Notes under the pieces: generated by a model
Database searches by the model: none
Told to the model about the DNA's origin: nothing
What the model saw: only the letters and a program-made list of their open reading frames with translations
NCBI RefSeq assembly: GCF_026339875.1
Contig: NZ_JAPEPZ010000001.1
Location: 1,426,001 to 1,490,000 of the forward strand
Direction of reading: 5' to 3'
Length of the DNA stretch: 64,000 nucleotides
Origin: Streptomyces sp. NBC_01571
GTDB taxonomy: Bacteria; Actinomycetota; Actinomycetes; Streptomycetales; Streptomycetaceae
Program-made: the position numbers and the translations under genes
In this document: piece by piece, positions 30,931 through 44,772 of the stretch
Layout of the letters: every line of letters starts with the position of its first letter
Numbering within the stretch: position 1 is the stretch's first letter

Positions 30931-30958
30931 TGTCACACATCGCCCCGCCACCCCGGTC
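30931..30958 (+). promoter_or_regulatory. ECF41-type promoter P1 (AhpD-like gene)
   Basis: TGTCACA (30931-30937), 17 bp, GGTC (30955-30958) in the context CCCCGGTCAT, 45 bp before the start codon. It is one of seven matching motifs between 30.9 and 44.6 kb; this copy has a spacer one base longer than the rest. Confidence 0.65.
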
Positions 30959-31002
30959 ATAGGTGTGTACCCACAACCGTCGTCGATCGTCAGGAGATCA
31001 CC

Positions 31003-31476
31003 GTGGAATCGCGTCTCAACTACTTCGGCCACCCCCTCGCCGGCAAGGTGCTGAAGCACATCAACACGGCCGGCAAGGCGGTTTCGGACACGACGCTGCC
31101 GCTCACGGTCCAGGAACTCGTGAAGATCCGCGCGAGCCAGATCAACGGCTGTGGCTTCTGCACCGACATGCACACCAAGGACGCCGCCGCGGCGGGTGAG
31201 ACCGCGCAGCGGCTCCACCTGGTCGCGGCCTGGCGTGAGGCCACGGTCTTCACCGACGCCGAACGCGCCGCACTGGAACTGGCCGAGCAGGGCACCCGCA
31301 TCGCCGACGCCGCCGGCGGTGTGACCGACGAGGCGTGGGCCGCCGCGGCCAAGCACTACGACGAGGAACAGCTCGTCGCCCTGATCTCCCTCATCGCCAT
31401 CATCAACGCCTACAACCGCATCAACGTCATCAACCAGCAGCCCGCCGGGAGCTACCAGCCCGGCCAGTTCGGCTGA
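31003..31476 (+). CDS. Carboxymuconolactone decarboxylase/AhpD-like protein
   Basis: 157 residues of the CMD/AhpD superfamily. The redox motif C-x2-C-x3-H is complete (Cys50, Cys53, His57 in INGCGFCTDMH), so it is likely an alkylhydroperoxidase-type thiol reductant rather than a decarboxylase. CMD proteins are the commonest partners of ECF41 sigma factors. An ECF41-type promoter motif stands in front, and an ECF41 gene lies 4 kb downstream. GTG at 31003 has AGGAG 6 bp upstream. Confidence 0.9.
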   Translation: MESRLNYFGHPLAGKVLKHINTAGKAVSDTTLPLTVQELVKIRASQINGCGFCTDMHTKDAAAAGETAQRLHLVAAWREATVFTDAERAALELAEQGTRIADAAGGVTDEAWAAAAKHYDEEQLVALISLIAIINAYNRINVINQQPAGSYQPGQFG

Positions 31477-31688
31477 TCGACGCCCGCACGCCGGGCACGA
31501 CCGGTCCGTCTCCACGTCGCCCCGACCCACGACGAGGAGACGGACCACCGGCGTTGAGCGGTTGCCCGGCCGGGGGGTCTTCACCACGACGACAACGTCC
31601 GGTGCGCGAACCGGTCTTCTCACTCGACGGCACACGCGCCCGCGGACGCCTGCTTCTCTGTCCCACGCACATCGAAAAGGGGAAACCC

Positions 31689-32453
31689 ATGCCCAGCTCA
31701 GCCACCCCCCGCTTCACCGACCGAGTCGCCATCGTCACGGGGGCGGGGTCGGGCATCGGCCGCGCCACCGCGATCGCCCTCGCCGAGTCGGGGGCACACG
31801 TCCTCGGTGTGGGACGCCGGAAGGACGCCCTGGAGGAGACGGCTCGCGCCCACTCCCGCATCGCGGTCCTGCCGCTCGACATCCGCGAGGAGAACGCCGC
31901 GGACACGGTGGTCGCCACCGCGGTGGAGCGATGGGGCCGGATCGACGTGCTGGTGAACAACGCCGGCGCCACGGCCGTGATGCCTCTCGCGGAGAGCGAC
32001 CGGTCGGTCATCACCAGCCTGTTCGACCTCAACGTGACAGCGCCGAGCATGCTCGCCCACGCCGCCCTGCCCCACCTGCGCGACTCCTCGGGTTCCATCG
32101 TCAACGTCTCCAGCACCTACGGGCACCGCCCCCTGGCCGGCGGAGCCCACTACGCCGCCACCAAGAGCGCCCTGGAGCAACTGACGAGGAGCTGGGCCCT
32201 CGAGCTCGCGTCCGACGGGGTACGGGTCAACGCGATCGCCCCCGGACCCACCAGGACGGACGTCCTGGTCGCGGCGGGCCTCTCCCAGGACACCATCGAC
32301 GAGCTGCGCGCCCACGAACGCGACCGCATCCCGACCGGCCGTCTCGGCGACGCGGAGGACGTCGCGGACTGGATCCTGCGCGTCGCCGATCCCCTGAGCA
32401 CGCACCTGACCGGTCAAGTGCTCACCATCGACGGGGGACTTGAGCTCGTCTGA
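31689..32453 (+). CDS. SDR family oxidoreductase
   Basis: 254 residues. Cofactor motif TGAGSGIG, NNAG, catalytic Ser in VNVSSTYG and YAATK; the C-terminus LTGQVLTIDGGLEL is standard for classical SDRs. Substrate unknown. It follows the AhpD-like gene by 212 bp on the same strand and could be read from P1, but it may have its own promoter. AGGGGA precedes the ATG at 31689. Confidence 0.9.
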   Translation: MPSSATPRFTDRVAIVTGAGSGIGRATAIALAESGAHVLGVGRRKDALEETARAHSRIAVLPLDIREENAADTVVATAVERWGRIDVLVNNAGATAVMPLAESDRSVITSLFDLNVTAPSMLAHAALPHLRDSSGSIVNVSSTYGHRPLAGGAHYAATKSALEQLTRSWALELASDGVRVNAIAPGPTRTDVLVAAGLSQDTIDELRAHERDRIPTGRLGDAEDVADWILRVADPLSTHLTGQVLTIDGGLELV

Positions 32454-32510
32454 CCGGCGGCGCGACCACCACGGGCGGCACACCGCCTCCTGGCCCGGCG
32501 AAGTCCGCCC

Positions 32511-32562
32511 GGCCCGTCTCCCCGGCTCGTCTCCCCGGCTCGTCTCCCCGGCTCGTCTCCCC
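32511..32562. repeat. 13-bp tandem repeat, four copies
   Basis: Unit GGCYCGTCTCCCC repeated four times in a row between the stops of two convergent SDR genes. Copies 2-4 are identical and copy 1 has C for T at position 4. The 244-bp gap holds no gene. Confidence 0.9.
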
Positions 32563-32697
32563 GGCCCGGCGCGGGCCGGACCCCGCCCGGTCCGTCGCCC
32601 GTGACCGGAGCGGGGCCGCGCCGATCACCCGGCACCGGACCACCGGGCGAGCTGCGCGGTCCGACGCCGGGCCCGAGGGGCGGGAGGGTGACCGGAC

Positions 32698-33423
32698 TCA
32701 GCGGGTCTGGTCGGTCGGCCGGATCAGGATCTCGTTGACGGCGACGTGCTCCGGCTGGGAGAGCGCGTACAGAACGGCAGCGGCGATGTCCTCCGCCTGG
32801 AGCGTCCGCATGGACTCGGCCATGTTCTTCGCCATGGTCCGTATGGCCGGGTCGGTGATGTGCGTGGCCACGAAGCCGGGCTCCACGACGACGACCCGCA
32901 CGCCCTGCTCGGTGACCTCCTGGCGCAACGCCTCGGAGAAGGCGGTGATGCCGAACTTGGTGGCCGAGTACACCCCGCTCGCGGCCGATGAAGCCCGCCC
33001 CGACGTCGAGGAGATCTGCACCACCGCCCCCTTGCTGCGGAGCAGGTGCGGCAGGGCGGAGTGGACGGCGTACATCGATCCGAGCAGGTTGGTCTCCACC
33101 ATGCGCGTCCACTCCGTGGTGTCCGCGCCCAGGATCTGCCCGCTGAGCATCACGCCCGCGTTGTTCACCAGCACGTCGAGGGCTCCGAAGCGCTCGACGG
33201 TCGCCTCGACCGCGTCGCGCACCGACTGCGGGTCGGTGACGTCGAGTTCGAGGGCCAGCATCTCGCCGGGGGCGTCCGCCGCGAGGAACCGCACCCGGTC
33301 GGCCCGCCGGGCGCCCGCCGCGACCCGGGCTCCCGCCTTCGACAGGGCGATCGCGATGGCCCGTCCGATGCCCGATGACGCACCGGTGACGAGGACGACT
33401 CTGCCTTCCAGGGTGTTGCTCAC
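32698..33423 (-). CDS. SDR family oxidoreductase, TetR-controlled
   Basis: 241 residues. Motifs TGASSGIG, NNAG, VQISSTSG and YSATK place it among classical SDRs. The C-terminal region with ALSQPEHVAVNEILIRPT resembles the YdfG/3-oxoacyl-type group. GTG at 33423 is chosen with GGAG 6 bp upstream. The gene is divergent from a TetR gene, with two operator copies between them, so it is very likely that regulator's target. Substrate unknown. Confidence 0.9.
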   Translation of the reverse strand: MSNTLEGRVVLVTGASSGIGRAIAIALSKAGARVAAGARRADRVRFLAADAPGEMLALELDVTDPQSVRDAVEATVERFGALDVLVNNAGVMLSGQILGADTTEWTRMVETNLLGSMYAVHSALPHLLRSKGAVVQISSTSGRASSAASGVYSATKFGITAFSEALRQEVTEQGVRVVVVEPGFVATHITDPAIRTMAKNMAESMRTLQAEDIAAAVLYALSQPEHVAVNEILIRPTDQTR

Positions 33424-33505
33424 AGGGTTCTCCAAGAAGTTCGTGGTTCGCAGTACCGGACCCGCCGAGGACCCTCAGGCCGGCCGGGAAGAGGCGGCCC
33501 AGAAG

Positions 33506-33521
33506 ATGACCGCCCGGTCAT
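33506..33521. promoter_or_regulatory. TetR operator, SDR side
   Basis: ATGACCGCCCGGTCAT, a perfect palindrome (ATGACCG-CC-CGGTCAT). Confidence 0.75.
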
Positions 33522-33542
33522 GTTTGAACCGTAGCAGCTAAA

Positions 33543-33558
33543 ATGACCCTGCGGTCAT
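33543..33558. promoter_or_regulatory. TetR operator, TetR side
   Basis: ATGACCCTGCGGTCAT, matching the other copy as ATGACC-N4-GGTCAT; centres are 37 bp apart. It is 35 bp before the TetR start codon. Confidence 0.75.
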
Positions 33559-33593
33559 GTTGGTGGTAGTCTTCTCGTCGTGAGGAGGCACAC

Positions 33594-34217
33594 ATGACCG
33601 GGACGACGGCCGCCACCGGCCAGCGGGCGGACATGGTGCGCAATCGACGCCTGCTGCTGGAGGCCGCGACGGCGGCGTTCGCGGAGCGCGGGGTCGAGGT
33701 GTCGATCGGCGAGATCGCCCAACGCGCCGGCCTCGCCAAGGGCACCGTGTTCCGGCACTTCGCCTCCAAGGAGGAACTGCTCGCGGCGATCACGCTCCAG
33801 ATGCTCGACCAGCTCATCCGCGCGGCGAAGCGGCTGCTGGCAGCCGACGACGCGGCAGCGGCGCTACGGGAATTCATGACCGACGGGGTCGAACTGCTCG
33901 CCGCCGACCGCGCGTTCTGCGAAGTGATCGGACGTCCCTCGCTCCAGCATTCCGGCGTGCGGGACACGATCGGCGATCTCTGCGAGGCGGCCGAGGCACT
34001 CACCGCCCGGGCGCGCGAGCAGGGCGCCGTCCGCGGCGACGTCACGGGAACGGACGTGGTGCTGCTCCTCGGCGGCATCCACCAGACCGCGGCGCCCCTG
34101 CTGGCCACGCAGCCACAGGCGTGGCGCCGCTACCTCGAACTGGCTCTCGACGGCCTGCGGGCCACCGACGCCGGCCCCCTGCCACAGCCACCGCCCGGAC
34201 GCCCGCGCCTCACCTGA
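33594..34217 (+). CDS. TetR family transcriptional regulator
   Basis: 207 residues. The DNA-binding domain spans RRLLLEAATAAFAERGVEV and GEIAQRAGLAKGTVFRHFASKEELL. The C-terminal domain is of the TetR_C type seen in actinobacteria and has no recognisable ligand signature. GAGGAGG precedes the ATG. The twin ATGACC-N4-GGTCAT sites in the divergent gap make autoregulation and control of the neighbouring SDR likely. Confidence 0.92.
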   Translation: MTGTTAATGQRADMVRNRRLLLEAATAAFAERGVEVSIGEIAQRAGLAKGTVFRHFASKEELLAAITLQMLDQLIRAAKRLLAADDAAAALREFMTDGVELLAADRAFCEVIGRPSLQHSGVRDTIGDLCEAAEALTARAREQGAVRGDVTGTDVVLLLGGIHQTAAPLLATQPQAWRRYLELALDGLRATDAGPLPQPPPGRPRLT

Positions 34218-34253
34218 CCCGCGGCGCCCGGTCCTGATCCGGAGCCGGGAACG

Positions 34254-34280
34254 TGTCACATACACCGGTGGTGTCCGGTC
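34254..34280 (+). promoter_or_regulatory. ECF41-type promoter P2 (cupin gene)
   Basis: TGTCACA (34254-34260), 16 bp, GGTC (34277-34280), preceded by CC. The start codon is 47 bp downstream. Confidence 0.75.
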
Positions 34281-34327
34281 TCTCCTGTGGGACGTAGCGC
34301 AACCAACGTGGGAAAGGGATGGTCGGC

Positions 34328-34816
34328 ATGTCGTACCCGAAGCAGGTGTACATGGGAGATGACGGCGAGATCAACGCGGACTTCCGATCGGCGAAGACTC
34401 CACCGAACGTCGGCACGGCCGGCGGTGACGCCATCCACTACCTGGCGACCACGGCCACCACGCACGGCGAATTCGGACTGTACCGAGTCGAGATGCGCCC
34501 GCACGCGGGTGGACCCAGGACCCACTTCCACAAGACCATCTCGGAGTCCTTCTTCATCCTCAACGGCACGGTTCGTCTCTTCGACGGCGCGCGGTGGACC
34601 GACGCCCGGCAGGGCGACTTCCTCCATGTGCCGCAGGGCGGACTGCACGCGTTCCGCAACGACTCCGACTCACCGGCCGACATGCTCCTGCTCTTCACCC
34701 CGGGAGCACCGCGCGAGGAGTACTTCGAGAAACTCTCGCAGCTCGCGGACGCCACGGACGAGGAGCGCGCCGAGTTCCTCGTCGAGCACGACTCGTACTT
34801 CGTGGAACAGCCGTAG
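34328..34816 (+). CDS. Cupin domain protein (P2 regulon member)
   Basis: 162 residues. The first cupin motif is GGPRTHFHKTISESFFILNG (two His and a Glu as metal ligands) and the second QGDFLHVPQGGLHAFRND. Probably a metal-dependent cytoplasmic enzyme or sensor, substrate unknown. ATG at 34328 and ATG at 34319 are both possible; GGGA is 8 bp before the former. An ECF41-type promoter stands in front. Confidence 0.87.
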   Translation: MSYPKQVYMGDDGEINADFRSAKTPPNVGTAGGDAIHYLATTATTHGEFGLYRVEMRPHAGGPRTHFHKTISESFFILNGTVRLFDGARWTDARQGDFLHVPQGGLHAFRNDSDSPADMLLLFTPGAPREEYFEKLSQLADATDEERAEFLVEHDSYFVEQP

Positions 34817-34850
34817 GAGCCGTCCCCGGCCCTCGCCGCCCCGCCGCGGA

Positions 34851-35294
34851 TCAGCCCCCGGGGCGCGGTGCGCGCAGGTGAGCCCGCCGCGCCAGTTCCT
34901 CCTCGTCGACCAGCGTGAGCATCGGCATGCCCGGCGCGCAGAGCATGGTCACGACGAAACGGCACGGCGCGTCCGTGCGGGCGTTTCCGTCCTGGTAATG
35001 GATGACGTCTCCGCCCGGCTCCCAGAACGTCTCGCCGGCCTTGACGACCCGCTCCGGTTCGCCTTCGAGCTCGAAGCGCACCTCGCCCTCGATCGCGTAG
35101 CCGAAGGCCGGTCCCGAGTGGCGGTGCGGAGGGGTACCGGGGTCACCGGGCGGCCACTGGACGAGGATCGTCATCCCCGAGGCGCCCTCGGGGATGTGGG
35201 GCGGTTCGACGTCCTGCAGGACCGTCACCGCCGTCTTCCACGCCTCGGAACGCGGGCTGTCCGGCGTCTCGCCCGACGAGTCGTTGTTCGACAC
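34851..35294 (-). CDS. Cupin domain protein
   Basis: 147 residues. Cupin motif 1 is TPPHRHSGPAFGYAIEGEV and motif 2 is FWEPGGDVIHYQD, the standard metal-binding layout. GTG at 35294 fits a GGGGGT site. It is divergent from the ECF41 sigma gene (173 bp) and convergent with the other cupin gene. No TGTCACA motif precedes it. Confidence 0.85.
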   Translation of the reverse strand: MSNNDSSGETPDSPRSEAWKTAVTVLQDVEPPHIPEGASGMTILVQWPPGDPGTPPHRHSGPAFGYAIEGEVRFELEGEPERVVKAGETFWEPGGDVIHYQDGNARTDAPCRFVVTMLCAPGMPMLTLVDEEELARRAHLRAPRPGG

Positions 35295-35467
35295 TCCGAC
35301 CCCCTCCGTGCTGGTCCGCGGTGACGGTGACCGTCGCTGATCAAGCGTGCACGGGTCCGATGGGGAGCACAACACGAGGCGTAGGCGGCAGGGCAGGACG
35401 CGTGGCTCCACCACGCGCCCCGCGGTGCCGGCCGGTAAAATGGGGGACCCGAACCTGAAGGAGATCC

Positions 35468-36364
35468 ATGTCCGCCGGGGATGACGCAGACTCCCTCGAC
35501 CGGGCGACGAGGGATTTCGTCGCGGCCCGTCCCCAGCTCTTCGGGATCGCGTACCGCGTGCTCGGCAGCGCCGTGGAGGCCGAGGACATCGTGCAGGAGG
35601 CCTGGCTGCGGTGGCAGAGCACCGACCGCACCGACATCCGCGAGCCGGCGGCCTTCCTGGCCACGGTCACCGCCCGCCTGGCCATCAACCTCGCGCAGTC
35701 CGCCAGGGTACGGCGTGAGACGTACATCGGGCCCTGGCTGCCGGAACCGGTAGACACCAGCCTCGACCCCCAACTGGGCGCGGAACGGGCCGAGGCACTC
35801 GACCTGGCCGTCCTCTTCCTCCTGGAGAAACTGAACCCGGTGGAACGGGCCGCCTACGTCCTGCGGGAAGCCTTCGCCTACCCGTACGGACAGATCGCCG
35901 ACATCCTCGAGACCAGCGAGGCCAACACGCGACAACTGGTCAGCCGCGCCCGCAAACACCTCTCCGCGGAACGCAAGGAGCCCGTCAGTCCCGACGCCCA
36001 CCGCAGGCTGCTGGAGGTCTTCCTCGTCGCGGCACAGACCGGCAGCCTCTCGGCGCTCGAGGAAGTACTCAGCGCCGACGTGGTCAGCTACGCCGACGGC
36101 GGAGGCATCCGCGGGGCCTCCAAGATCCCGGTCGTCGGCCGCCCCCACGTCAGCAAATACCTCGTCGCCTTCGCCCCGCGGTTCTGGCCCGGGACGGACA
36201 TCCGCTGGGTCGAGAGCAACGGCAGCCCGGCCGTCCTCGTCTCCTCCCACGGAAACCCCGTCGTCCTGCTCTCCGTGGACGCCTCGGAACACGGCATCGA
36301 ACGCATCATGTGGGTCATGAACCCCGACAAACTCGGCCCCTACGCGGCTTCGTTGAGCGCCTGA
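35468..36364 (+). CDS. ECF41 family RNA polymerase sigma factor (SigJ-like)
   Basis: 298 residues. Sigma-2 lies at about 17-80 (FGIAYRVLGSAVEAEDIVQEAWLRW) and sigma-4 at about 108-165 (NPVERAAYVLREAF, YGQIADILETSEANTRQLVSRAR). Between and after them are the ECF41 signatures: WLPEP at 90-94, DGGG at 210-213 and NPDKL near the end, in a SnoaL-like C-terminal domain that both activates and restrains the sigma in this family. No anti-sigma gene is needed. It is the probable driver of the seven TGTCACA-N16-GGTC promoters nearby. Its own upstream region has no such motif. Confidence 0.93.
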   Translation: MSAGDDADSLDRATRDFVAARPQLFGIAYRVLGSAVEAEDIVQEAWLRWQSTDRTDIREPAAFLATVTARLAINLAQSARVRRETYIGPWLPEPVDTSLDPQLGAERAEALDLAVLFLLEKLNPVERAAYVLREAFAYPYGQIADILETSEANTRQLVSRARKHLSAERKEPVSPDAHRRLLEVFLVAAQTGSLSALEEVLSADVVSYADGGGIRGASKIPVVGRPHVSKYLVAFAPRFWPGTDIRWVESNGSPAVLVSSHGNPVVLLSVDASEHGIERIMWVMNPDKLGPYAASLSA

Positions 36365-36393
36365 AGACGTTCTGTCACAAGCCTCCCCACGGG

Positions 36394-36420
36394 TGTCACA
36401 AGCGGGGTGGGCTCTCGGTC
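36394..36420 (+). promoter_or_regulatory. ECF41-type promoter P3 (Ohr gene)
   Basis: TGTCACA (36394-36400), 16 bp, GGTC (36417-36420), preceded by C. A second TGTCACA at 36373 has no matching -10. The predicted leader before the Ohr start codon is about 200 nt. Confidence 0.7.
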
Positions 36421-36627
36421 AACCCACTGGCGGAGACCTGGGGCTTGCCCATGACACAAAGGCGCGGGACACATGGCACTTGGCGCATCCGGCTCGTCGG
36501 GCTCCGCCCGGGGCCGGACCTCTCGCACGGGCCCTCGGCACGAGGTGACCCCGGCGTGCACCCGCCCTCCCGCGACGGTGCCGACTCCACGTCCGGCGGC
36601 GTACGACGACGTCCACGGAGCCATGCG

Positions 36628-37125
36628 GTGACCGACGGATTCCGGTTGCCCCCGCCGTCCGCCGCCGAGGAGTTCGACGGGGAGTCCTTCGCTCCCCTCT
36701 ACACCACGACGGTGACCGCGAGTGGGGGGACAGCCCGTCACGGACGGGTCTCGGGAAGGGCCCGCTCGGCCGACGGGGTGCTGGACCTCGATCTCCGCAT
36801 GCCCGCCGAGCTGGGAGGAGACGGCCGGGGAACGAACCCCGAGCAGTTGTTCGCCGCAGCCTTCGCCGTCTGCTTCCACGGCGCGCTCAGCCTGGTGGCA
36901 CGCCACGCGGCGATCGACCCCGCCGCGATCTCCGTGGAGGCGACCGTCGCCCTCGGGCGGGACCCGGGGGACATCGGCTACCTGCTCCACGTCGACCTCG
37001 TGGTGAGGTGGCCCGGCGTCGACCCCGAGGCGGCCGCTCCGCTGCTCGCGAAGGCCGATTCCCTGTGTCCCTACACGAAGATGGCCTGGCGGGGGACGCC
37101 GACATCCATCACCTTCTCGTCATAG
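36628..37125 (+). CDS. Ohr/OsmC family peroxiredoxin
   Basis: 165 residues. The two catalytic cysteines of the Ohr type are Cys82 (AFAVCFHGAL) and Cys147 (SLCPYTKM), and Glu72 sits in TNPEQLFAAAF. It reduces organic hydroperoxides, probably with lipoyl or other dithiols. GTG at 36628 is chosen (GGAG 7 bp upstream), leaving a short N-terminal extension; an in-frame ATG at 36451 would add a Arg/Pro-rich 59-residue stretch not typical of the family. P3 stands before it. Confidence 0.88.
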   Translation: MTDGFRLPPPSAAEEFDGESFAPLYTTTVTASGGTARHGRVSGRARSADGVLDLDLRMPAELGGDGRGTNPEQLFAAAFAVCFHGALSLVARHAAIDPAAISVEATVALGRDPGDIGYLLHVDLVVRWPGVDPEAAAPLLAKADSLCPYTKMAWRGTPTSITFSS

Positions 37126-37241
37126 CCGGGACATCGGCCGCCTGTTCGGCACCACCGCCGGCCCCGGGTTCCTCATACGATGCGCGTCGCGTGTGGTGAC
37201 CGTCTGCGCGCGACCCGCTGCAGGGCCCGGACGAATGAAGG

Positions 37242-37268
37242 TGTCACAAACTCCGGGACGGCCTGGTC
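37242..37268 (+). promoter_or_regulatory. ECF41-type promoter P4 (flavoprotein gene)
   Basis: TGTCACA (37242-37248), 16 bp, GGTC (37265-37268), 34 bp before the start codon. The base before GGTC is T rather than C. Confidence 0.75.
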
Positions 37269-37302
37269 GTAGTGATGACACCCCAGGCGATCGGAGCAAA
37301 CC

Positions 37303-39033
37303 GTGGTCATCACCGAACGACGTCTCTCCACCATGGTGCTGGTGATCGGCACCGGAGGAGCCGGACTGCGAGCGGCCATCGAACTGGCCGAGGCCGGCGT
37401 CGACGTCCTCGCGGTCGGCAAGCGTCCGAAGGAGGACGCCCACACGGCACTCGCGGCCGGAGGGATCAACGCGGCGCTGTCCACGATGGATCCCGAGGAC
37501 AGCTGGCAGCAGCACGCGGCGGACACCCTCAAGGAGAGCTATCTTCTCGCCGATCCTCGGACGACCCGGATCGTCACCCAGGGCGCCGCCCGGGGAATCG
37601 ACGATCTGGAACGCTACGGCATGGCCTTCGCCAGGGAAGAGGACGGCCGGATCAGCCAACGCTTCTTCGGCGCCCACAAGTTCCGGCGGACCGCCTTCGC
37701 CGGCGACTACACCGGCCTGGAGATCCAGCGCACCCTCATCAGACGCGCCGACCAGCTCGGCATCCCCGTACTCGACGGCGTGTACATCACCCGGCTCCTG
37801 GTCCACGACGGCGCCGTCTTCGGCGCCTACGGCTTCGACCTCACCGACGGAACGCGCTACCTGATCCACGCCGACGCCGTCATTCTCGCCGCGGGCGGTC
37901 ACACCCGCATCTGGCGTCGTACGTCGTCACGGCGCGACGAGAACACGGGCGACTCCTTCCGTCTGGCGGTGGAGGCAGGGGCCCGTCTGCGCGACCCCGA
38001 GCTGGTCCAGTTCCACCCGTCCGGGATCATCGAACCGGAGAACGCGGCCGGCACCCTGGTCAGCGAGGCCGCTCGGGGCGAGGGCGGAATACTGCGCAAC
38101 GCGCTCGGAGAGCGGTTCATGTCCCGCTACGACCCCGTCCGTATGGAGCTGTCCACCCGCGACCGTGTCGCCCTGGCCTCCTACACGGAGATCAAGGAAG
38201 GGCGAGGGACACCCAGCGGAGGGGTGTGGCTCGACGTCTCCCATCTGCCCCGGCAGACGATCATGACGCGGCTCCCCCGCGTCTACCAGACCCTGCTGGA
38301 TCTGCAGATGCTGGACATCACCCGTGAGCCGATCGAGATCGCGCCCACGGCGCACTACTCGATGGGCGGGGTGTGGGTGCGCCCCGAGGACCACAGCACC
38401 GACGTCCGCGGCCTGTACGCCATCGGCGAGGCGTCGAGCGGGCTGCACGGCGCCAACCGCCTGGGCGGCAACAGTCTCATCGAGCTGCTGGTCTTCGGCC
38501 GCATCACGGGGCAGGCGGCCGCCGCCTACTCGCGATCGCTCACCGCGCACACGCGGTCGGCGACTGCCACCGCGCACGCCCGCGCGGAGATCGACGACCT
38601 CCTCGCCGCCGACGGGCCGGAGAACGTCCGCGCCCTGCAGCGTGCCGTCCGCAACACCATGACCGAGCACGCGGGAGTCGTACGCGACGAAGAAGGCCTG
38701 CGGGCCGGGCTGGCGGAGCTCGCGGCGATCGAGGAGAGGATGGAGAAGGTCGGCGTCCACCCGGACATTGCCGGCTACCAGGACCTCGCGCACGCCTTCG
38801 ACCTCATGTCCGCCGCCCTGGCGGCCCGTGCCACCCTCGAGGCGGCACTGGAGCGTCGCGAGACACGCGGCTGTCACAACCGCAGTGACTATCCCGACCT
38901 CGATCCCGCTCTGCAGGTCAATCTCGTGTGGTCGCCGACGACCGGCATCACCCACGAGAGCATTCCGGCCATCCCTGAAGAGATCTCCTCTCTGATGGAG
39001 GAGGTCTCGACCGAGGGAAAGCTCGCCGAATGA
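37303..39033 (+). CDS. Stand-alone fumarate reductase/succinate dehydrogenase-type flavoprotein
   Basis: 576 residues. The FAD site is VIGTGGAGLRAAIELAE; His47 in AHTALAAGG matches the residue that carries covalent FAD in SdhA/FrdA, unlike L-aspartate oxidase. Further motifs are HPSGI, TAHYSMGGVWV and GANRLGGNSLIELLVFG. The C-terminal helical part is also present. It would interconvert fumarate and succinate or a similar pair. There is no iron-sulfur or membrane subunit gene beside it, so its electron partner is unclear. GTG at 37303 has GGAG 7 bp upstream. A 56-aa ORF overlaps its stop. Confidence 0.87.
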   Translation: MVITERRLSTMVLVIGTGGAGLRAAIELAEAGVDVLAVGKRPKEDAHTALAAGGINAALSTMDPEDSWQQHAADTLKESYLLADPRTTRIVTQGAARGIDDLERYGMAFAREEDGRISQRFFGAHKFRRTAFAGDYTGLEIQRTLIRRADQLGIPVLDGVYITRLLVHDGAVFGAYGFDLTDGTRYLIHADAVILAAGGHTRIWRRTSSRRDENTGDSFRLAVEAGARLRDPELVQFHPSGIIEPENAAGTLVSEAARGEGGILRNALGERFMSRYDPVRMELSTRDRVALASYTEIKEGRGTPSGGVWLDVSHLPRQTIMTRLPRVYQTLLDLQMLDITREPIEIAPTAHYSMGGVWVRPEDHSTDVRGLYAIGEASSGLHGANRLGGNSLIELLVFGRITGQAAAAYSRSLTAHTRSATATAHARAEIDDLLAADGPENVRALQRAVRNTMTEHAGVVRDEEGLRAGLAELAAIEERMEKVGVHPDIAGYQDLAHAFDLMSAALAARATLEAALERRETRGCHNRSDYPDLDPALQVNLVWSPTTGITHESIPAIPEEISSLMEEVSTEGKLAE

Positions 39034-39200
39034 CAGGTGAGGGCCTGGCCGGGGCACGGGAGGGCGCGTCGGTGGTGATCGACGTGTCCGTGTCCGACTC
39101 CCCCTTGGGCGCCCCCTTCGAGGAGACCACACTCGTGCCCGGGTCCGACGCGGAGAACGCCGGGACGCGCTTCGTCGAACGGCCCCCGCACCAGCGGTGA
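39030..39200 (+). CDS. Small ORF coupled to the flavoprotein gene
   Basis: 56 residues, from ATG at 39030, which overlaps the flavoprotein stop as ATGA, to TGA at 39198-39200, directly before a strong terminator. It is acidic with no cysteines or membrane segment, and includes VVIDVSVSDSPLGAPFEETT. I do not recognise a family. Overlap and terminator position support it being real and translated together with the flavoprotein; it could be a small accessory subunit. Unverified. Confidence 0.5.
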   Translation: MTGEGLAGAREGASVVIDVSVSDSPLGAPFEETTLVPGSDAENAGTRFVERPPHQR

Positions 39201-39207
39201 TTCCAGT

Positions 39208-39234
39208 GGGCCCCTGTCGACAAGACAGGGGCCC
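39208..39234 (+). terminator. Terminator of the flavoprotein operon
   Basis: GGGCCCCTGTC (39208-39218) pairs perfectly with GACAGGGGCCC (39224-39234) around the loop GACAA. It lies 7 bp after the small ORF stop. Confidence 0.9.
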
Positions 39235-39341
39235 CGCCCTTGCCGCGGCAGCCTCACCCCACGCAGGCACGGACCCTGTCTGAGCCCTCCTTTTCCGAAT
39301 CGCCCCCCTACGAGATCCCCGCGCGGAAGAATCGGCACGAC

Positions 39342-39938
39342 ATGTTCCACCCCAAGGAAGCCACCGTTTTCCGTCCCGCTCCCCACGAGGAGCCGACCGG
39401 CGTCTACCTCATCGACCCGGTCCGCAGTGCGATCGGCTTCTCCGCCCGACGCGCCATGATCGCCGACGTACGCGGGCACTTCACCGCGTTCGAGGGGCTC
39501 CTCAAGCTCGACGGAGCCCGTCCCACCCGCTCCGAGGCCTACCTCAGTGTCCAGACGGGCAGCGTGGACACGGGGTCCCGGGAGCGCGACGCACACGTCA
39601 CCGGACCGGAGTTCCTGGACGCCGAGACGTTTCCTCTCATGAGCTTCCGTTCCACCGGAGTCCTCGACGCCGGTGACGATCGGCTCCGGCTGGCGGGGTG
39701 CCTCCGGATCAAGGACGGCGAGCTCCCTGTCCATCTCGACCTCGAGTTCCGTGCGCCGAGCCGGGACGCGTACGGACGCGACCGAGTCGGCTGCGAAGGT
39801 ACGGTCACCCCGCGGCGCTCCGCCCCTGGCCCCGACGGCAATCCCGCTCCGGGACCAGGGGGACTCCTGATCAGCGACAGGGTGCGGCTGATCCTCGACC
39901 TCTCCGCCGTACGGACACGGCCGTGTCAGCCTCTGTGA
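39342..39938 (+). CDS. YceI family protein
   Basis: 198 residues with the YceI lipocalin-like barrel: YLIDPVRSAIGFSARRAMIADVRGHFTAF at the start, HVTGPEFLDAETFPLMSF in the middle and a hydrophobic final strand. YceI-like proteins bind polyprenyl chains and may carry isoprenoid quinones. No signal peptide is seen. It sits between respiratory-type genes, so a quinone-related role is attractive but inferred. No clear promoter was found. The end overlaps the convergent cytochrome b gene by 13 bp. Confidence 0.85.
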   Translation: MFHPKEATVFRPAPHEEPTGVYLIDPVRSAIGFSARRAMIADVRGHFTAFEGLLKLDGARPTRSEAYLSVQTGSVDTGSRERDAHVTGPEFLDAETFPLMSFRSTGVLDAGDDRLRLAGCLRIKDGELPVHLDLEFRAPSRDAYGRDRVGCEGTVTPRRSAPGPDGNPAPGPGGLLISDRVRLILDLSAVRTRPCQPL

Positions 39939-41551
39939 TCACCGGTGAGCGCCTTGTACTCCTGCGCCGTCGGCTTGGTGATCTGCGCGCCCTCGCCGTA
40001 GAAACGCCGGCTGAGCCGGGCGCGCAGTCGCTGGGCCGGGCGCGATCCGGCAGCAGGCTCTTCCCCGTCGCCCGTTCCGCCGGGACCGATCGGCCGGTAC
40101 TGCTCGTGCTGGGTGAGGACGTGCAGTCGTTCTTGGCTGAGCGGCTCGTGCACCTCGACGAACTCACCGTGCGGCAGACGCCTGATCGTGCCGGTCTCGC
40201 GTCCGTGCAGGACTTCGTCGCGGTCCGCGCGCTGGAGACCCAGCGCCCACCGTCGTGCTACGGCGTAGGCGGCGGGGGGCACGACGAACAGGGCGATGCG
40301 CACCGCCCACGTCACTGATTCGACCCCGACGTGCAGGCGAACGGCGATGATGTCGTTCGCGGCTCCGACGAGGGCCACCAGATAGAAGCTGATCCATGCC
40401 ACGCCGAGGCCCGCTCGCACCGGGCGGTTGCGCGGCCTGTCGAGGACGTGCTGGTCACGATCGTCGCCCGTCACCCATGCCTCGAGGAACGGGTACGCGC
40501 CCATGGCGACGAAGAGTCCGGCTCCCACCAGCAGCGGGACCAGGTTGTCGAGAGCCAGTGTGTGGCCCCAGAAGTCGACTTCCCAGCCCGGCATGACGCG
40601 CAGGAGCCCGTCGGCCACACCCATGTACCAGTCGGGTTGGGACCCCGCCGAGACCTGGTCGGCGCGATGGGGGCCGTACTGCCAGACGGGGTTGATCTGC
40701 GCGAAGGCGGCGACGAGGAGTATGCCGCCGGCGACCAGGAAGAAGAATCCCGCGGACTTCACGGCACGCACCTTGAACGGAAGGCCCACGACGTTCCGGT
40801 TGTCGCGCCCCGCACCCGGATACTGGGTGTGCCTGTGGCGGAGGGCCAGGACCACATGCGCGACGACCAGCCCCACCATGAGGGCAGGGATGATCAGCAC
40901 GTGAAGGGTGTTGAAACGCGCGACCAGGTCGTCGCCCGGGAACTCACCCCCGAAAAGGAACATCGAGAGATACGTTCCGACGATGGGCACGGAGAGAATG
41001 GTTCCGTTCACGACCGCGAGGCCGGTCCCGGACAGCAGATCGTCCGGAAGGTCGTACCCTGTCAGGCCCGCGAACATTCCCAGGACCAACAGCAGGAAAC
41101 CGAAAACCCAGTTGAGCTCACGAGGCTTTCGGAACGCTCCGGTGAAGAACACCCGCAACATGTGGACCAGCATCGCGGCGACGAAGACCAGCGCCGCCCA
41201 GTGGTGGACCTGTCGGATGAGCAGGCCACCGCGTACGTCGAAGGAGATGTGCAGGGTCGAGTCGAACGCGTCCGACACCGTCTGCCCGCGCAGCGGGGCG
41301 TAACTGCCCTGATACGTCACCTCCTTCATCGACGGATGGAAGTACAGCGTGAGATACACGCCTGTGACGACGATGACGAGAAAGCTGTAGAGGCATATCT
41401 CGCCGAGCAGGAACGACCAGTGGTCCGGGAACGCTCTTCGCGCTCTCTCCCTGAGCCGACCGTGCACACCCAGGCGCCCGGAGGCCCAGTCGGCGATCCT
41501 TTCTCCTGCGGGACCTCGCCGCGCGGGCTTTTCCCGGCTCCCGTCGCTCAT
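39926..41551 (-). CDS. Solitary QcrB-type cytochrome b
   Basis: 541 residues, cytochrome b of the actinobacterial bc1 (bcc) type with 8-9 transmembrane helices. Heme ligand candidates are His116/117 and His130 in RQVHHWAALVFVAAMLVHML, and His217 and His232 in the fourth-helix region. The quinol-site motif is PDWY (306-309), as usual in actinobacteria. A hydrophilic C-terminal tail of about 130 residues follows. No QcrA (Rieske) or QcrC gene is near, so it is a paralog outside the main qcrCAB operon. An ECF41-type promoter reads into it. ATG at 41551. Confidence 0.9.
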   Translation of the reverse strand: MSDGSREKPARRGPAGERIADWASGRLGVHGRLRERARRAFPDHWSFLLGEICLYSFLVIVVTGVYLTLYFHPSMKEVTYQGSYAPLRGQTVSDAFDSTLHISFDVRGGLLIRQVHHWAALVFVAAMLVHMLRVFFTGAFRKPRELNWVFGFLLLVLGMFAGLTGYDLPDDLLSGTGLAVVNGTILSVPIVGTYLSMFLFGGEFPGDDLVARFNTLHVLIIPALMVGLVVAHVVLALRHRHTQYPGAGRDNRNVVGLPFKVRAVKSAGFFFLVAGGILLVAAFAQINPVWQYGPHRADQVSAGSQPDWYMGVADGLLRVMPGWEVDFWGHTLALDNLVPLLVGAGLFVAMGAYPFLEAWVTGDDRDQHVLDRPRNRPVRAGLGVAWISFYLVALVGAANDIIAVRLHVGVESVTWAVRIALFVVPPAAYAVARRWALGLQRADRDEVLHGRETGTIRRLPHGEFVEVHEPLSQERLHVLTQHEQYRPIGPGGTGDGEEPAAGSRPAQRLRARLSRRFYGEGAQITKPTAQEYKALTGDHRG

Positions 41552-41734
41552 GCCTCTACCACCGTTCACACATCGTTCAGGAGAATCGCGTTCGCCCCGG
41601 CGCGCTTCCCGTCTCCCAGGCAGCCGAGGACCTCGGCGAAGAGGGTCGGAGAATCCGGCGCGACCGGGTGCGAGAACGGGTCTCGTCACCGCACTTCCGG
41701 GATCGGCGGACACCCGGCCCGCTCCCACCCGTAT

Positions 41735-41761
41735 GACCGGGCGAGAAGCGTGGATGTGACA
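41735..41761 (-). promoter_or_regulatory. ECF41-type promoter P5 (cytochrome b)
   Basis: Minus strand: TGTCACA (41761-41755), 16 bp, GGTC (41738-41735), context CCGGTCAT. It points to the cytochrome b gene; the leader is about 175 nt. Confidence 0.72.
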
Positions 41762-41775
41762 CGCACGGAGGCTCA

Positions 41776-41802
41776 TGTCACAAGATCCGGGCCTGCCCGG
41801 TC
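41776..41802 (+). promoter_or_regulatory. ECF41-type promoter P6 (ECF41-like gene)
   Basis: TGTCACA (41776-41782), 16 bp, GGTC (41799-41802), context CCGGTCAG. It reads toward the truncated ECF41-like gene. Confidence 0.72.
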
Positions 41803-42003
41803 AGAAGGTTGAGCCGAGAAATGAGAAATGGCGTGTCATTCACCAGGACTCCGCTGCCGGCCACCGAAATCACCGTCCGGGCACAGGCGTGTACGTGCCG
41901 GCCCCGAACCATCGGGCCGGAGATACCGCTCAAGGCCTCCGGAACCGCGAGGAGAAATTCTGTGCGGCCGTGTGACACGGCCGTCCGTGAGGGAGAATGC
42001 CGT

Positions 42004-42783
42004 ATGGATCGTGTCGCTGCGGTGCCGCTCGCGGAGTTGCTGGACGAGCGTCGGTATCTGCTGGACGTGGCCTGCTGGATGCTGGGCAGCGCCGGTGCGG
42101 CGGAGGGCGTGGTCGACGAGACGTACCGCCGGTGGTACGGGCTCCCGGACGCGACGCGTGGCCGTATCGAGGTGCCCCGGTCCTGGCTGGCGAAGACCGC
42201 GGGCGGTATCTGTCTCGGCCGGCTCACCGGTCCCGGCCCGGTGGACGACACCGCCGGCACCGCCGGAACGGCGGACCGCCACCAGAATGCCGAACGCCCC
42301 GCCGCCACGCTGGTCGTCGACCGGGCACGTCATGGCGTTCGCGTGCCACGCCCGCACCCCGTCTCGGCGTACCAGCACGATGTCCTCGCCCGAGCCGTCC
42401 GCGAGGCCTGTGCGGCGCAGGACGGCGAACGGCTCGCCTCGCTCCTCGCCCCGGACGCCACGGCGCTCTTCGACGGCGGCGGCAAGGTCCGGGCCCTGGC
42501 CGGCCCCGTACACGGCTGCCGGCAGGTCGCCGCCAGCCTGTTGACGCTCCTGGCCCTCCGGCCGCGCACCACGCTGACCGCCCACTCGGTCAACGGCCGC
42601 ACCGGTCTCGTGGCCCGCTACGACCACCAGGTCGCCGCCGTCATCAGCCTCGCCGTCGCCGATCGGCGCATCACGCGGATCTCGATCGTCCTCAACCCCG
42701 ACAAACTCCGCCTCTGGAACCACCCGCCGATCGTCCGCGGCGCACCGGAGCGTCCGTCGCCGCGGAGTGACGGCCGGCTCTGA
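42004..42783 (+). CDS. Truncated ECF41-like protein lacking sigma-4
   Basis: 259 residues. The first 75 resemble a sigma-2 region (LLDERRYLLDVACWMLGSAG...VVDETYRRWYGL). Residues 128-259 match the ECF41 C-terminal SnoaL-like domain, with DGGGK at 157-161 and NPDKL at 231-235. Between them only about 50 residues remain, with no WLPEP motif and no sigma-4 helix-turn-helix, only what looks like its last helix (VDRARHGVR). It cannot read a -35 box in the normal way. It may be a decaying paralog or a regulator of the intact ECF41 factor. ATG at 42004 follows GGGAGAA. Confidence 0.78.
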   Translation: MDRVAAVPLAELLDERRYLLDVACWMLGSAGAAEGVVDETYRRWYGLPDATRGRIEVPRSWLAKTAGGICLGRLTGPGPVDDTAGTAGTADRHQNAERPAATLVVDRARHGVRVPRPHPVSAYQHDVLARAVREACAAQDGERLASLLAPDATALFDGGGKVRALAGPVHGCRQVAASLLTLLALRPRTTLTAHSVNGRTGLVARYDHQVAAVISLAVADRRITRISIVLNPDKLRLWNHPPIVRGAPERPSPRSDGRL

Positions 42784-42805
42784 TCACCTGCCGTCCCGCC
42801 GGGTC

Positions 42806-43192
42806 TCAGGCCGACGCTCCGACGACCAGCACGACGCTGACCACGACCATCACCGCGGTGATGAGAGCCATCGCGGCCAGCGTTCCCCGGAGCCATCGCC
42901 CGAAGCGCACGTGGTGCTGCTTCTCCACCACGCTGATGCTGTCGGCGATGTGCTCGGTCACCATTCGAGCGACGTGTCTCTGCTCCTCGACGTACCACTC
43001 CTCGATATCGATCCTCTGCTGCCGGGTCAGGCCGGGCACACGTGCGGTGAAATCCGCCGCGCGTCGGTGGGCCGCTCCCAGGTGGGACTCCCGGTACAGG
43101 AAGTTCTCGATGTCGGTCAGGCCGCGTGCGGCCTCCTCACTCGCGTCCAAGGTGCCCTCCAGAGGGGTAGGCGCATCCCTGCCACCCGGCAC
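42806..43192 (-). CDS. Small C-tail-anchored membrane protein
   Basis: 128 residues. The N-terminal 95 are helical and rich in Glu, His and Arg (IENFLYRESHLGAAHRRAAD, IEEWYVEEQRHVARMVTEH), then one transmembrane helix (about 104-125) ends the protein. The ExxR/H-rich helices could bind metal but no known family is certain. It follows the NDH-2 gene by 45 bp on the same strand, so it is probably co-transcribed from P7 and may bind or anchor that dehydrogenase. The start is GTG at 43192. Confidence 0.65.
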   Translation of the reverse strand: MPGGRDAPTPLEGTLDASEEAARGLTDIENFLYRESHLGAAHRRAADFTARVPGLTRQQRIDIEEWYVEEQRHVARMVTEHIADSISVVEKQHHVRFGRWLRGTLAAMALITAVMVVVSVVLVVGASA

Positions 43193-43237
43193 CGGCCGAA
43201 TGCTCCGGCCCGCGCGTGTGGCCCCGTCCCCCGTCGC

Positions 43238-44575
43238 TCACCCGGCTCCCCCGCCGGAGCGTCGCGGCTCGCCGCTCGCGAGGAACGCGTCCCGCGGATG
43301 CTGGACGGAGGCCAGGGAGACGAGATCGCGGCCGAACAGCGCGGCGGTGAGCCAGACGGCGAGCACGCGGACCTTCCGCTCCCAGGTGGGAACGGCCAGG
43401 ACGTGATAGCCGCGGTGCATCAGCCAGGCGGGAAGACCCTTGATGACGATGCCCTTGTACTGGAAGACGCCCCGTCCAAGACCCAGTGTCGCCACCACTC
43501 CCAGGCTGCTGTGACGGTAGTCCCGGATCCTGCCTCCGTGCAGGTCGGCCGCGATGTTCTTCGCGAGGCGCCTGCCCTGCCGCACGGCGTGCTGGGCGTT
43601 CGGTACCGTGTGCGCCCCCGGTACCGGAGAGGCCAGGTCCGGAACGGCCGCGTCGTCTCCGGCCGCCCACACGTCCGGCACGGGCTCGTCGGCCGTACCC
43701 ACGCGAAGGTCGGGGCGGACGATGACCAGACCCCGCTCGTCGACCGGCAGATCCGTGTGGTTGTGCACGACCGGGTTGGAGGCGTTGCCGGCGGTCCAGA
43801 CGATCAGCGCCGAATCGAACTCCTCCCCGCTGGACAGCACGACGTGCCCGTCCTCGGCGGAGACCAGCTGGGTGTTCAGATGGACGTGCGCGCCCCGGCG
43901 TTCCAGATCGCGAACGACCCAGGCGCCGGGCTTGTCACCCACCTCGGGCAGGATGCGCCCCCGGGCCTCGACCAGGTGGAAGGAGAGGTCCTCGAAGCTC
44001 AGTTCCGGATACGACGCGAGCATCGCGGTCGCCAGCGACAGCAGCTCGCCGAAGCCCTCGACCCCGGAGAATCCGCCACCCACGAACGTGACGGTGAGCA
44101 GTTTCCGCCGCTCGGCCCCGGGCGGCGTCGACGCCGCCTGGTCGAACGCGGTCATCAGCCGGTCGCGAATCGCGACGGCCTCCTCGACGTGCTTCAGGCC
44201 GATCGCCTGCTGCGCCAGGCCCGGTATGGGGAAGGTGCGGGTCACGGCGCCGGCGGTGACCACGAGGGTGTCGTAGCGGAGTTCGTGGTCGTTTCCGTCG
44301 GCGGACCGCACGGTGACCGCCCGGTCCGCGTGGCTTATCCCGGTCACGCTCCCCGCGATCAGCCGGGTGCCGCGCAGATGCCTCCGCAAGGACACGGCGG
44401 CGTGCCGCGCCTCGACCGAGCCGGCCGTCACCTCCGGAAGGAACGGCTGGTACGTCATATAGGGACGCGGGTCGACGACCGTCACCCGAGCCTCGCCCGT
44501 ACGCAGCGCCTTCTCGAGGCCCCACGCGGTGTAGAAGCCCGCGTAGCCGCCACCGACGATCACAATCTCGCGCAT
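43238..44575 (-). CDS. Type II NADH dehydrogenase (NDH-2)
   Basis: 445 residues. The FAD motif is IVIVGGGYAGFYTAWGLE and the NADH-binding motif TVTFVGGGFSGVEGFGEL. DVWAAGDDAAVPD near the C-terminus is the FAD pyrimidine site, and HAVRQGRRLAKNI follows. It moves electrons from NADH to the quinone pool without proton pumping, at the inner membrane face; a C-terminal amphipathic region (WLMHRGYHVLAVPTWERK) may attach it. ATG at 44575 is 28 bp after the predicted P7 start. Related to Ndh paralogs of actinobacteria rather than to respiratory complex I. Confidence 0.9.
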   Translation of the reverse strand: MREIVIVGGGYAGFYTAWGLEKALRTGEARVTVVDPRPYMTYQPFLPEVTAGSVEARHAAVSLRRHLRGTRLIAGSVTGISHADRAVTVRSADGNDHELRYDTLVVTAGAVTRTFPIPGLAQQAIGLKHVEEAVAIRDRLMTAFDQAASTPPGAERRKLLTVTFVGGGFSGVEGFGELLSLATAMLASYPELSFEDLSFHLVEARGRILPEVGDKPGAWVVRDLERRGAHVHLNTQLVSAEDGHVVLSSGEEFDSALIVWTAGNASNPVVHNHTDLPVDERGLVIVRPDLRVGTADEPVPDVWAAGDDAAVPDLASPVPGAHTVPNAQHAVRQGRRLAKNIAADLHGGRIRDYRHSSLGVVATLGLGRGVFQYKGIVIKGLPAWLMHRGYHVLAVPTWERKVRVLAVWLTAALFGRDLVSLASVQHPRDAFLASGEPRRSGGGAG

Positions 44576-44608
44576 GATTCCCTCTGTCCGTTGTTCGACA
44601 CCGGAATA

Positions 44609-44635
44609 GACCGGGTGGGGCCGGGTGGTGTGACA
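44609..44635 (-). promoter_or_regulatory. ECF41-type promoter P7 (NDH-2 operon)
   Basis: Minus strand: TGTCACA (44635-44629), 16 bp, GGTC (44612-44609), context CCGGTCTA. The start codon is 34 bp downstream. Confidence 0.78.
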
Positions 44636-44695: not shown

Positions 44696-44730
44696 GGACG
44701 CAAACCCTACATACTGTAGGGTTTGCGTCC
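44696..44730. promoter_or_regulatory. 35-bp perfect inverted repeat with CTACA-N3-TGTAG core
   Basis: Arms of 15 bp (GGACGCAAACCCTAC with GTAGGGTTTGCGTCC) separated by ATACT. The core CTACA-TAC-TGTAG (44707-44719) resembles BlaI/CopY-type operators. It lies 43 bp before the GTG start of the membrane protein gene. A related site precedes the lysyltransferase gene at 45639-45659. Confidence 0.65.
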
Positions 44731-44772
44731 TCATGAGTTCGTCATGAGCCTCTTACGTCTCGGGGGATCCCT

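Follow-up and report, generated by a model that had tools for sequence, protein, structure and literature searches.

The DNA analysed here is a 64,000-nucleotide stretch of the Streptomyces sp. NBC_01571 genome (the window), and its central gene encodes an extracytoplasmic function (ECF) sigma factor of group ECF41, named sigma-A (35468-36364). Sigma-A probably governs a local regulon as its master regulator, acting via promoters of the form TGTCACA-N16-GGTC, with SIG2, a degenerate ECF41 relative encoded in the same region, as putative feedback regulator. An ECF41-driven regulon had been proposed in the initial annotation; clustering of the sites, their fixed spacing and the recurrence of the same target families support the regulon, whereas its dependence on sigma-A is one that we infer from the co-occurrence of sites and gene.

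An exact pattern scan revealed seven TGTCACA-N16/17-GGTC sites within 13.7 kb of the window, in agreement with the annotated coordinates and strands. Shuffled windows contained a mean of 0.13 sites, and none of 100 shuffles reached seven. The spacer is 17 bp in P1 and 16 bp in P2 to P7, and the -10 element reads CGGTC in six of the seven sites, both as annotated, and TGGTC in P4, with GGTC present in all seven. In the genome (11.54 Mb), TGTCACA-N15..18-GGTC was matched 19 times, the window holding seven of these, and the reversed pattern was matched nine times, for which reason most of the 12 outside sites are considered to be at chance level. The expectation per 13.7-kb stretch was 0.023 sites, giving a Poisson probability of 6e-16 for at least seven. 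The strict site, TGTCACA-N15-CGGTC (i.e., GGTC at N16), was found nine times in the genome, five times in the window and twice in the reversed control. Three of the 12 outside sites are in a convincing setting, two flanking a second copy of the sigma gene and one lying 59 bp 5' of a nitroreductase gene on contig C2 that shares 75% identity with a counterpart following a site in a related locus (L062); most of the remaining ones are off spacing or have no called gene closely downstream. A genome scan for motif clustering had been set beforehand as a refuting test of the proposal and did not refute it, the sites clustering here and in sigma-bearing relatives.

The sites and genes of the region are as follows, COE denoting the CMD, oxidoreductase and epimerase target types of ECF41 factors and CMD carboxymuconolactone decarboxylase.

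30931..30958, + strand: P1, TGTCACA-N17-GGTC, 5' of the CMD/AhpD-like gene; off-spacing
31003..31476, + strand: CMD/AhpD-like gene, the classical ECF41 target type (PF02627, TIGR00778)
34254..34280, + strand: P2, N16, 5' of the Cupin_2 gene; weakest footprint
34319..34816, + strand: Cupin_2 gene (PF07883)
34851..35300, - strand: CUP2, a second cupin gene (approximate start), in divergent orientation to the sigma-A gene
35468..36364, + strand: ECF41 sigma gene (sigma-A), with regions 2 and 4, YIGPWLPEP linker, ADGGG and NPDKL
36394..36420, + strand: P3, N16, 30 bp past the sigma-A gene, 5' of the Ohr/OsmC gene
36628..37125, + strand: Ohr/OsmC gene (approximate start, with a further in-frame ATG at 36451; TIGR03561 above cut-off, PF02566)
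37242..37268, + strand: P4, N16, TGGTC, 5' of the flavoprotein gene
37303..39033, + strand: SdhA/FrdA-like flavoprotein gene (PF00890, PF02910)
39030..39203, + strand: short open reading frame, probable NmrA-like COE remnant (71% identity over 24 aa, with E 2.6e-4 when composition correction was off)
39926..41551, - strand: QcrB-type cytochrome b gene (NF050120, 715 bits, cut-off 500)
41735..41761, - strand: P5, N16, 5' of the QcrB-like gene
41776..41802, + strand: P6, N16, 5' of SIG2, divergent from P5
42004..42783, + strand: SIG2, degenerate ECF41, with region 2 and a SnoaL/NTF2-like domain, region 4 undetected
43238..44575, - strand: NDH-2-like FAD/NAD oxidoreductase gene (start MREIVIVGG, chosen by eye; PF07992)
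44609..44635, - strand: P7, N16, 5' of the NDH-2-like gene

Domain scans placed a gene of redox or sigma type behind each site, as annotated, with the correction that the 'ECF41-like' target of P6 is degenerate and region-4-less. P3, P5 and P6 are located about 180-210 nt away from the likely start codons, and at P3 (36373-36420) there are two TGTCACA elements, 21 bp apart, of which only the second is followed by GGTC at N16. For CUP2, no site was found in the window (N16, up to two mismatches). The called genes flanking the flavoprotein gene encode Ohr and YceI, neither being an iron-sulfur subunit. The short open reading frame at 39030-39203 gave no NmrA-like match at 1e-3 once composition correction was on; it is probably a deletion remnant of an NmrA-like gene, the commonest target in relatives.

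The mapped ECF41 promoter is TGTCACA-N16-CGTC, given as a logo from 285 sequences (Wecke 2012, PMC3426412). The window sites have the same -35 element, with N16 in six of seven and N17 in one, and GGTC in place of CGTC at -10 in all seven. A pattern scan for canonical CGTC at N16 yielded no match in the window and seven in the whole genome, and canonical CGTC promoters were thus rejected as the local signal. For comparison, 99 loci (20 + 79, labelled L###) were fetched around relatives of sigma-A, 98 of them distinct, since one contig is represented by both L062 and L140. TGTCACA-N15-CGGTC occurred 188 times in these loci (185 distinct sequences), and the remaining spacings between 10 and 23 accounted for eight in total; N17-GGTC, the form of P1, was found twice versus 205 times for N16, and canonical CGTC at N16 just twice. 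Sites with a downstream gene were A/T-rich after GGTC, the seventh base being G in 60%, in line with a promoter start region, and the median distance from site to called start was 45 bp. Over 61 genomes, the own one included, canonical CGTC sites were present in 53, scattered among the matches listed, and 30 genomes had strict GGTC sites, which frequently lay in clusters. By this comparison, the window sites represent an ECF41 promoter variant specific to the clade, with the first -10 base changed from C to G. The annotated reading of the -10 element as a specific variant holds in this sense, the variant being GGTC at the canonical N16 and not an insertion.

The number of sites was compared with the presence of sigma-A in 199 genomes of the genus (G###), a homologue being defined by at least 70% identity and E below 1e-130. 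Sigma-A was present in 36 genomes, eight had a 57-61% identical relative only and 155 had neither at E 1e-90. The 36 genomes contained 315 strict sites (mean 8.75; at least one in 36/36 and at least five in 23/36) and 11 matches to the reversed pattern, the eight genomes with the distant relative contained 19 and the 155 without sigma-A 92 (mean 0.59). The difference in count between sigma-A genomes and these 155 was supported by a Mann-Whitney test (1.6e-21, uncorrected for relatedness). The sites were found clustered, with 7/7 in 17 kb in G011, 14/18 on one 63-kb contig in G020 and 5/5 in 6 kb in G050, and larger islands within 65 kb of sigma-A held 16/17 strict sites of G196 and 15/20 of G165. 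Of 33 further sigma-A loci (window and L050 not counted), sites were present in 31, with two or more in 24. In G103 (78% complete), sigma-A was not found, yet 9/10 sites lie in 29 kb with the usual targets. From these comparisons, the sigma-A clade seems to control a modular island of redox and respiratory genes with many promoters, in contrast to the ECF41s described with a single target.

The much larger islands are located at G165:C2:2964182-3029150 (~65 kb, 15 sites) and G196:C1:899142-960604 (~61 kb, 16 sites).

In the 99 loci and the window, 226 site rows (TGTCAC[AG], N16/17) were obtained, 187 with a called gene downstream. By protein cluster, where clusters without a window counterpart were named from a single representative, the commonest targets were NmrA-like oxidoreductase (44, the top COE type), flavoprotein (22), ECF41 sigma (19) and CMD (14), followed by SIG2 (11), second cupin (10), Ohr (8), NDH-2 (7), alpha/beta hydrolase (5) and QcrB (5). 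Ferredoxin, ferredoxin-reductase-like, ferritin-like and methyltransferase genes (three each) and WhiB (one) were rare, and the nitroreductase target of L062/L140 was counted as one contig. Homologues of the seven window target families outside the window had a site in 58/94 cases versus 62/1412 for the remaining genes (Fisher 8e-46, with related species treated as independent); from these remaining genes, the family sets and the NmrA cluster had been set aside and second-tier sigmas kept in. Elsewhere, a site was found before 20/24 flavoprotein, 13/18 CMD, 7/10 Ohr, 10/20 SIG2 and 10/17 CUP2 homologues. Judged by these homologues, the footprint is good for P3, P4 and P6, moderate for P7 and weak for P5 and P2, and P1 is well footprinted as a target, but its spacer is rare. 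In the same comparison, the island is modular, the promoter being constant while gene order and content vary. Second-tier sigmas (55-70% identical) are behind a site in nine fetched islands (L055, L082, L084, L086, L087, L088, L089, L092, L094).

WhiB genes were observed behind sites at L072:6189-6482, L169:11673-11975, L170:2714-3007 and L172:3969-4235, three of them belonging to G129 and G103, and a second regulatory layer is possible there. ECF41-type sigmas of ~195-235 aa without SnoaL-like domain were seen in or near site clusters in L056, L057, L077, L081, L084, L087, L089, L117, L160, L169 and L172, where assembly errors are possible.

The intact ECF41 sigma gene annotated in the middle of the region, with WLPEP, DGGG and NPDKL, was recovered as such. 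Sigma-A scored above cut-off for TIGR02957 (SigX4, 340 bits, cut-off 323) and NF007214 (SigJ, 272 bits, cut-off 271), PF04542 and PF08281 were matched in a Pfam scan, and a SigJ match covered 15-243. It has the ECF41 architecture, with regions 2 and 4 present, region 3 absent and a SnoaL-like extension at the C-terminus, for which a Pfam SnoaL match was absent at E 1e-3, and the translation contains the WLPEP linker as YIGPWLPEP as well as NPDKL. Its COE-type neighbours are CMD at 31003, the cupins and the probable NmrA-like remnant at 39030. No site was found upstream of the gene, between 34280 and 36394 (N16, up to two mismatches), and just 3/35 homologues of at least 70% identity have an upstream site, two of these three being short second-tier sigmas. 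Autoregulation was rejected on these grounds, and the sigma-A gene is apparently not transcribed from a promoter of this type.

A second copy of the sigma gene in the same genome (G000:C1:9381448-9382338, L050:8456-9352) has 98.9% DNA identity to window positions 35455-36351. The identity is confined to the sigma reading frame, the flanks having no similarity to the window apart from a separate 80% match in the cupin, which suggests a recent gene conversion or gene-sized duplication. The copy (9.38 Mb) sits between two further sites, with cupin and amidase as the respective genes.

SIG2, the target of P6, is a protein of 259 aa that matched ECF41 models in two separate stretches, bypassing region 4. 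In an alignment with 22 homologues, region 2 is followed by a linker that varies and by a SnoaL-like part that is conserved (DGGGK, NGRTG, NPDKLR). Four helices were predicted for region 2 at 9-75, where PF04542 scored 16.5 bits, under the cut-off of 24. The structure model (mean predicted local distance difference test score 82.5) revealed a helical region 2 and an NTF2-like domain, with a low-confidence stretch, 88-112, between the two; alignment A1, behind both this model and the SIG2 profile search, includes window sigma-A as one row. PF08281 region 4, a feature of ECF sigma factors, was unmatched in window SIG2 at E<1 in the Pfam scan, and was undetected at that level in 14/24 scanned members of the clade, window SIG2 included (L111 not counted), and above cut-off in two. 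SIG2 and its relatives make up one side of a branch (23 rows) with a Shimodaira-Hasegawa-like approximate likelihood ratio support of 99, next to full-length ECF41s from the genus. On the SIG2 tree, built from the remaining columns, region 4 presence needed six changes, at least two by well-supported branches; presence was assigned manually, with E 0.05 as the upper limit (L092 with E 0.049 present, L056_10338 with E 0.18 absent). The median ratio of replacement to silent substitution rates (dN/dS) in 19 sequences was 0.35 for region 2, 1.15 for the linker, 0.51 for region 4 and 0.38 for the SnoaL part, to be taken as relative values only, since dS saturation is possible. Judged by these features, SIG2 is a degenerate, region-4-less protein and probably not a working second sigma factor.

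SIG2 matches at E<1e-40 in the 61 genomes were found in 6/9 with sigma-A versus 0/52 without (Fisher 1.5e-6). Of 30 SIG2-type genes, 19 are at most 360 bp from an ECF41 sigma gene; the 30 include L111 (region 4 above Pfam cut-off) and L133 (grouping with full-length relatives). The region-4-less form is located 3' of a sigma gene on the same strand in Nonomuraea (two), Actinoplanes and Actinophytocola, with gaps of 224, 105, -4 and 16 bp. NP.K[LI] is kept by 29/30 SIG2-type genes. Among 20 sigmas beside SIG2, 19 have WLPE, seven have NP.K[LI] and five are below 240 aa (SnoaL-less), compared with 98, 75 and eight of 111 other sigmas. Loss of NP.K[LI] was tried as a mark of SIG2-adjacent sigmas and found weak (p = 0.01), as the motif is itself highly variable within the GGTC clade. 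Absence of WLPE was not taken as SIG2-specific, as WLPE is found in 1/30 SIG2-type proteins, but also in just 2/11 full-length relatives.

NPDKL has been reported to connect the SnoaL-like domain with the WLPEP linker (PMC7730460), and partial removal of the C-terminus results in a strongly active ECF41 (Wecke 2012, PMC3426412). In view of this and of the features above, SIG2 is taken to be a regulator that acts in trans, most probably by braking the response through feedback, a role to which we give about an even chance. Somewhat short of even, and put forward tentatively, is a 'split ECF41' circuit, in which the fused sensor would have come apart and SIG2 would act in trans from the regulon's own promoter. 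It is suggested by SIG2 losing or eroding region 4 while keeping an almost invariant SnoaL/NPDKL domain, and by neighbouring second-tier sigmas that mostly keep WLPEP, yet have a degenerate NPDKL or no SnoaL-like domain. If true, the split would provide feedback over an island of up to ~16 co-regulated redox promoters.

SIG2 could instead be a decaying sigma paralogue that is carried along, or still a sigma factor, which we consider rather unlikely. The patchy detection of region 4 in the clade and the linker evolving without visible constraint would fit such decay, but replacement-site change is slower in region 2 and the SnoaL part, NP.K[LI] is almost invariably kept, a sigma gene is close by in 19/30 cases and a site precedes 10/20 homologues.

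In the proposed mechanism, sigma-A holoenzyme would read TGTCACA-N16-GGTC and start seven window transcripts, i.e., those of CMD, cupin, Ohr, the SdhA/FrdA-like flavoprotein, cytochrome b, SIG2 and NDH-2, as well as up to two beside the 99% identical sigma copy and probably that of the nitroreductase on another contig. The target genes would constitute a redox/electrophile-stress and electron-transfer module. The SnoaL-like domain of sigma-A may sense a ligand, probably a redox-active or electrophilic small molecule, which would relieve inhibition and allow sigma-A to bind core enzyme; the seven promoters would then raise peroxide- and quinone-handling enzymes together with alternative electron-transfer parts. 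SIG2 would accumulate and damp or tune the response, either competing for core RNA polymerase or docking in trans on the sigma WLPEP linker, as might be expected from its kept core-binding region 2 and NPDKL-bearing SnoaL-like domain and its missing DNA-reading region 4.

Several observations weigh against control of the sites by sigma-A with SIG2 as its regulator. Merely one to four strict sites are present in 13/36 sigma-A genomes, loci L058 and L085 have no site and 9/33 sigma-A loci have fewer than two (L083 is just 3 kb). G129 has no sigma-A, yet 7/8 of its sites lie in 23 kb around a sigma that is 53% identical, ~197 aa long and SnoaL-less, which implies that sigma-A is not the sole reader of the sites. 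To these add the rare spacer of P1 and the low share of homologues with a site for NDH-2 (6/14), QcrB (1/3) and Cupin_2 (1/5), the QcrB value being that at the identity threshold used, with further QcrB-like genes also behind sites. SIG2-type genes also occur without close sigma-A in G103, L117 and several other actinobacterial families, their adjacency to sigma genes is inflated, as most loci were chosen for holding a sigma, and the loss of NP.K[LI] in adjacent sigmas (7/20 keep it vs 75/111) is modest; window SIG2 itself adjoins no sigma gene, so that its partner there is a guess. The sigma-A query, moreover, gave 21 matches at E<=0.001 in its own genome, the 99% identical copy included.

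These paralogues raise the alternative that the sites are real ECF promoters read mainly by another ECF41 factor, window sigma-A being minor or redundant. The second copy between two more sites and the G129 cluster speak for it as well, but site number tracks sigma-A over the 199 genomes, while all 37 genus genomes checked carry an ECF41-like match at E<1e-53, and canonical CGTC sites, found in 53/61 genomes, number only two in the 99 loci; we hold this alternative to be improbable. A transcription-factor operator would likewise be conserved, directional and upstream of genes. The -35 element and spacing, however, equal those of mapped ECF41 promoters (PMC3426412), and the motif is asymmetric with a single fixed spacing, A/T-rich with G at +7 and a median of 45 bp from called starts, making an operator highly improbable. 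Chance, or a functionless motif spread by duplicated DNA, could draw on the duplication of the sigma gene itself, but was rejected in view of the shuffles (0.13 vs seven sites), the genome scan, the seven differing spacer sequences and the 185 distinct sequences among 188 strict sites, and its probability is negligible.

Described ECF41s have one target transcript each in B. licheniformis and R. sphaeroides, with no phenotype (Wecke 2012, PMC3426412), and the same holds for S. meliloti RpoE9 (one target; PMC6180224). The contrast between a multi-promoter regulon and single-target ECF41s, made in the initial annotation, is upheld by these papers, and by site count the window does not share the single-target property. 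ECF41s make up 13/45 ECF sigmas of S. coelicolor. For A. brasilense, control of motility genes is cited for one ECF41 (reference in PMC8999054), an indication that wider regulons may exist among other ECF41s. Sigma-A shares with the described ECF41s the fused SnoaL-like C-terminus, WLPEP and NPDKL and the promoter -35 TGTCACA with N16; shared by the window are CMD/oxidoreductase/epimerase-type targets and the lack of an obvious anti-sigma gene. The described factors differ in a -10 of CGTC or TGTT and one target, compared with GGTC and seven local promoters including respiratory genes, and in having no degenerate sigma paralogue inside the regulon. The ECF56 pair SigG1-RsfG of S. tsukubaensis (PMC7730460) is likewise a SnoaL-fused ECF sigma with a neighbouring regulator, although RsfG is described there as lacking conserved Pfam domains, whereas SIG2 is sigma-derived with its own SnoaL-like domain. 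The S. coelicolor SigJ and SCO3450 iModulons (PMC11538686) also tie sigma factors to genes at one locus; that of SigJ (SCO1265-SCO1288) is nearest in kind, being derived from expression modules and compared by description only.

M. tuberculosis SigJ (PDB 5xe7) is the closest solved structure to sigma-A (E 7e-46), the best match of the SIG2 profile (E 8e-41; this profile also contains sigma-A) and rank 1 in Foldseek for the SIG2 model, SIG2 being without SigJ's region 4. The best PDB matches of SIG2 are SigJ and SigG1. We know of no regulon of M. tuberculosis SigJ as large as that of the window. PhyR and the split sigma SigO-RsoA are examples of sigma-like proteins or parts serving as regulators or partners, with different domains and no SnoaL-like domain. 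In the open-licence literature, as partially covered by title and start of abstract, no multi-promoter ECF41 island, GGTC variant or region-4-less ECF41 regulator was found. With its distinct -10 element and many local promoters, the GGTC clade would make an ECF41 with several targets accessible to study, NDH-2, cytochrome b, flavoprotein and Ohr serving as output that can be read, and would connect ECF41 with respiration and redox stress. How a SnoaL-like domain fused to a sigma factor controls it could be studied on the natural cases in which sigma core and sensor domain are separated.

Upstream of NDH-2 and P7, a palindrome, GGACGCAAACCCTACA-TAC-TGTAGGGTTTGCGTCC, was observed at 44697-44731, the core of which gave one further match in a genome search, with two mismatches, at C1:8098035.

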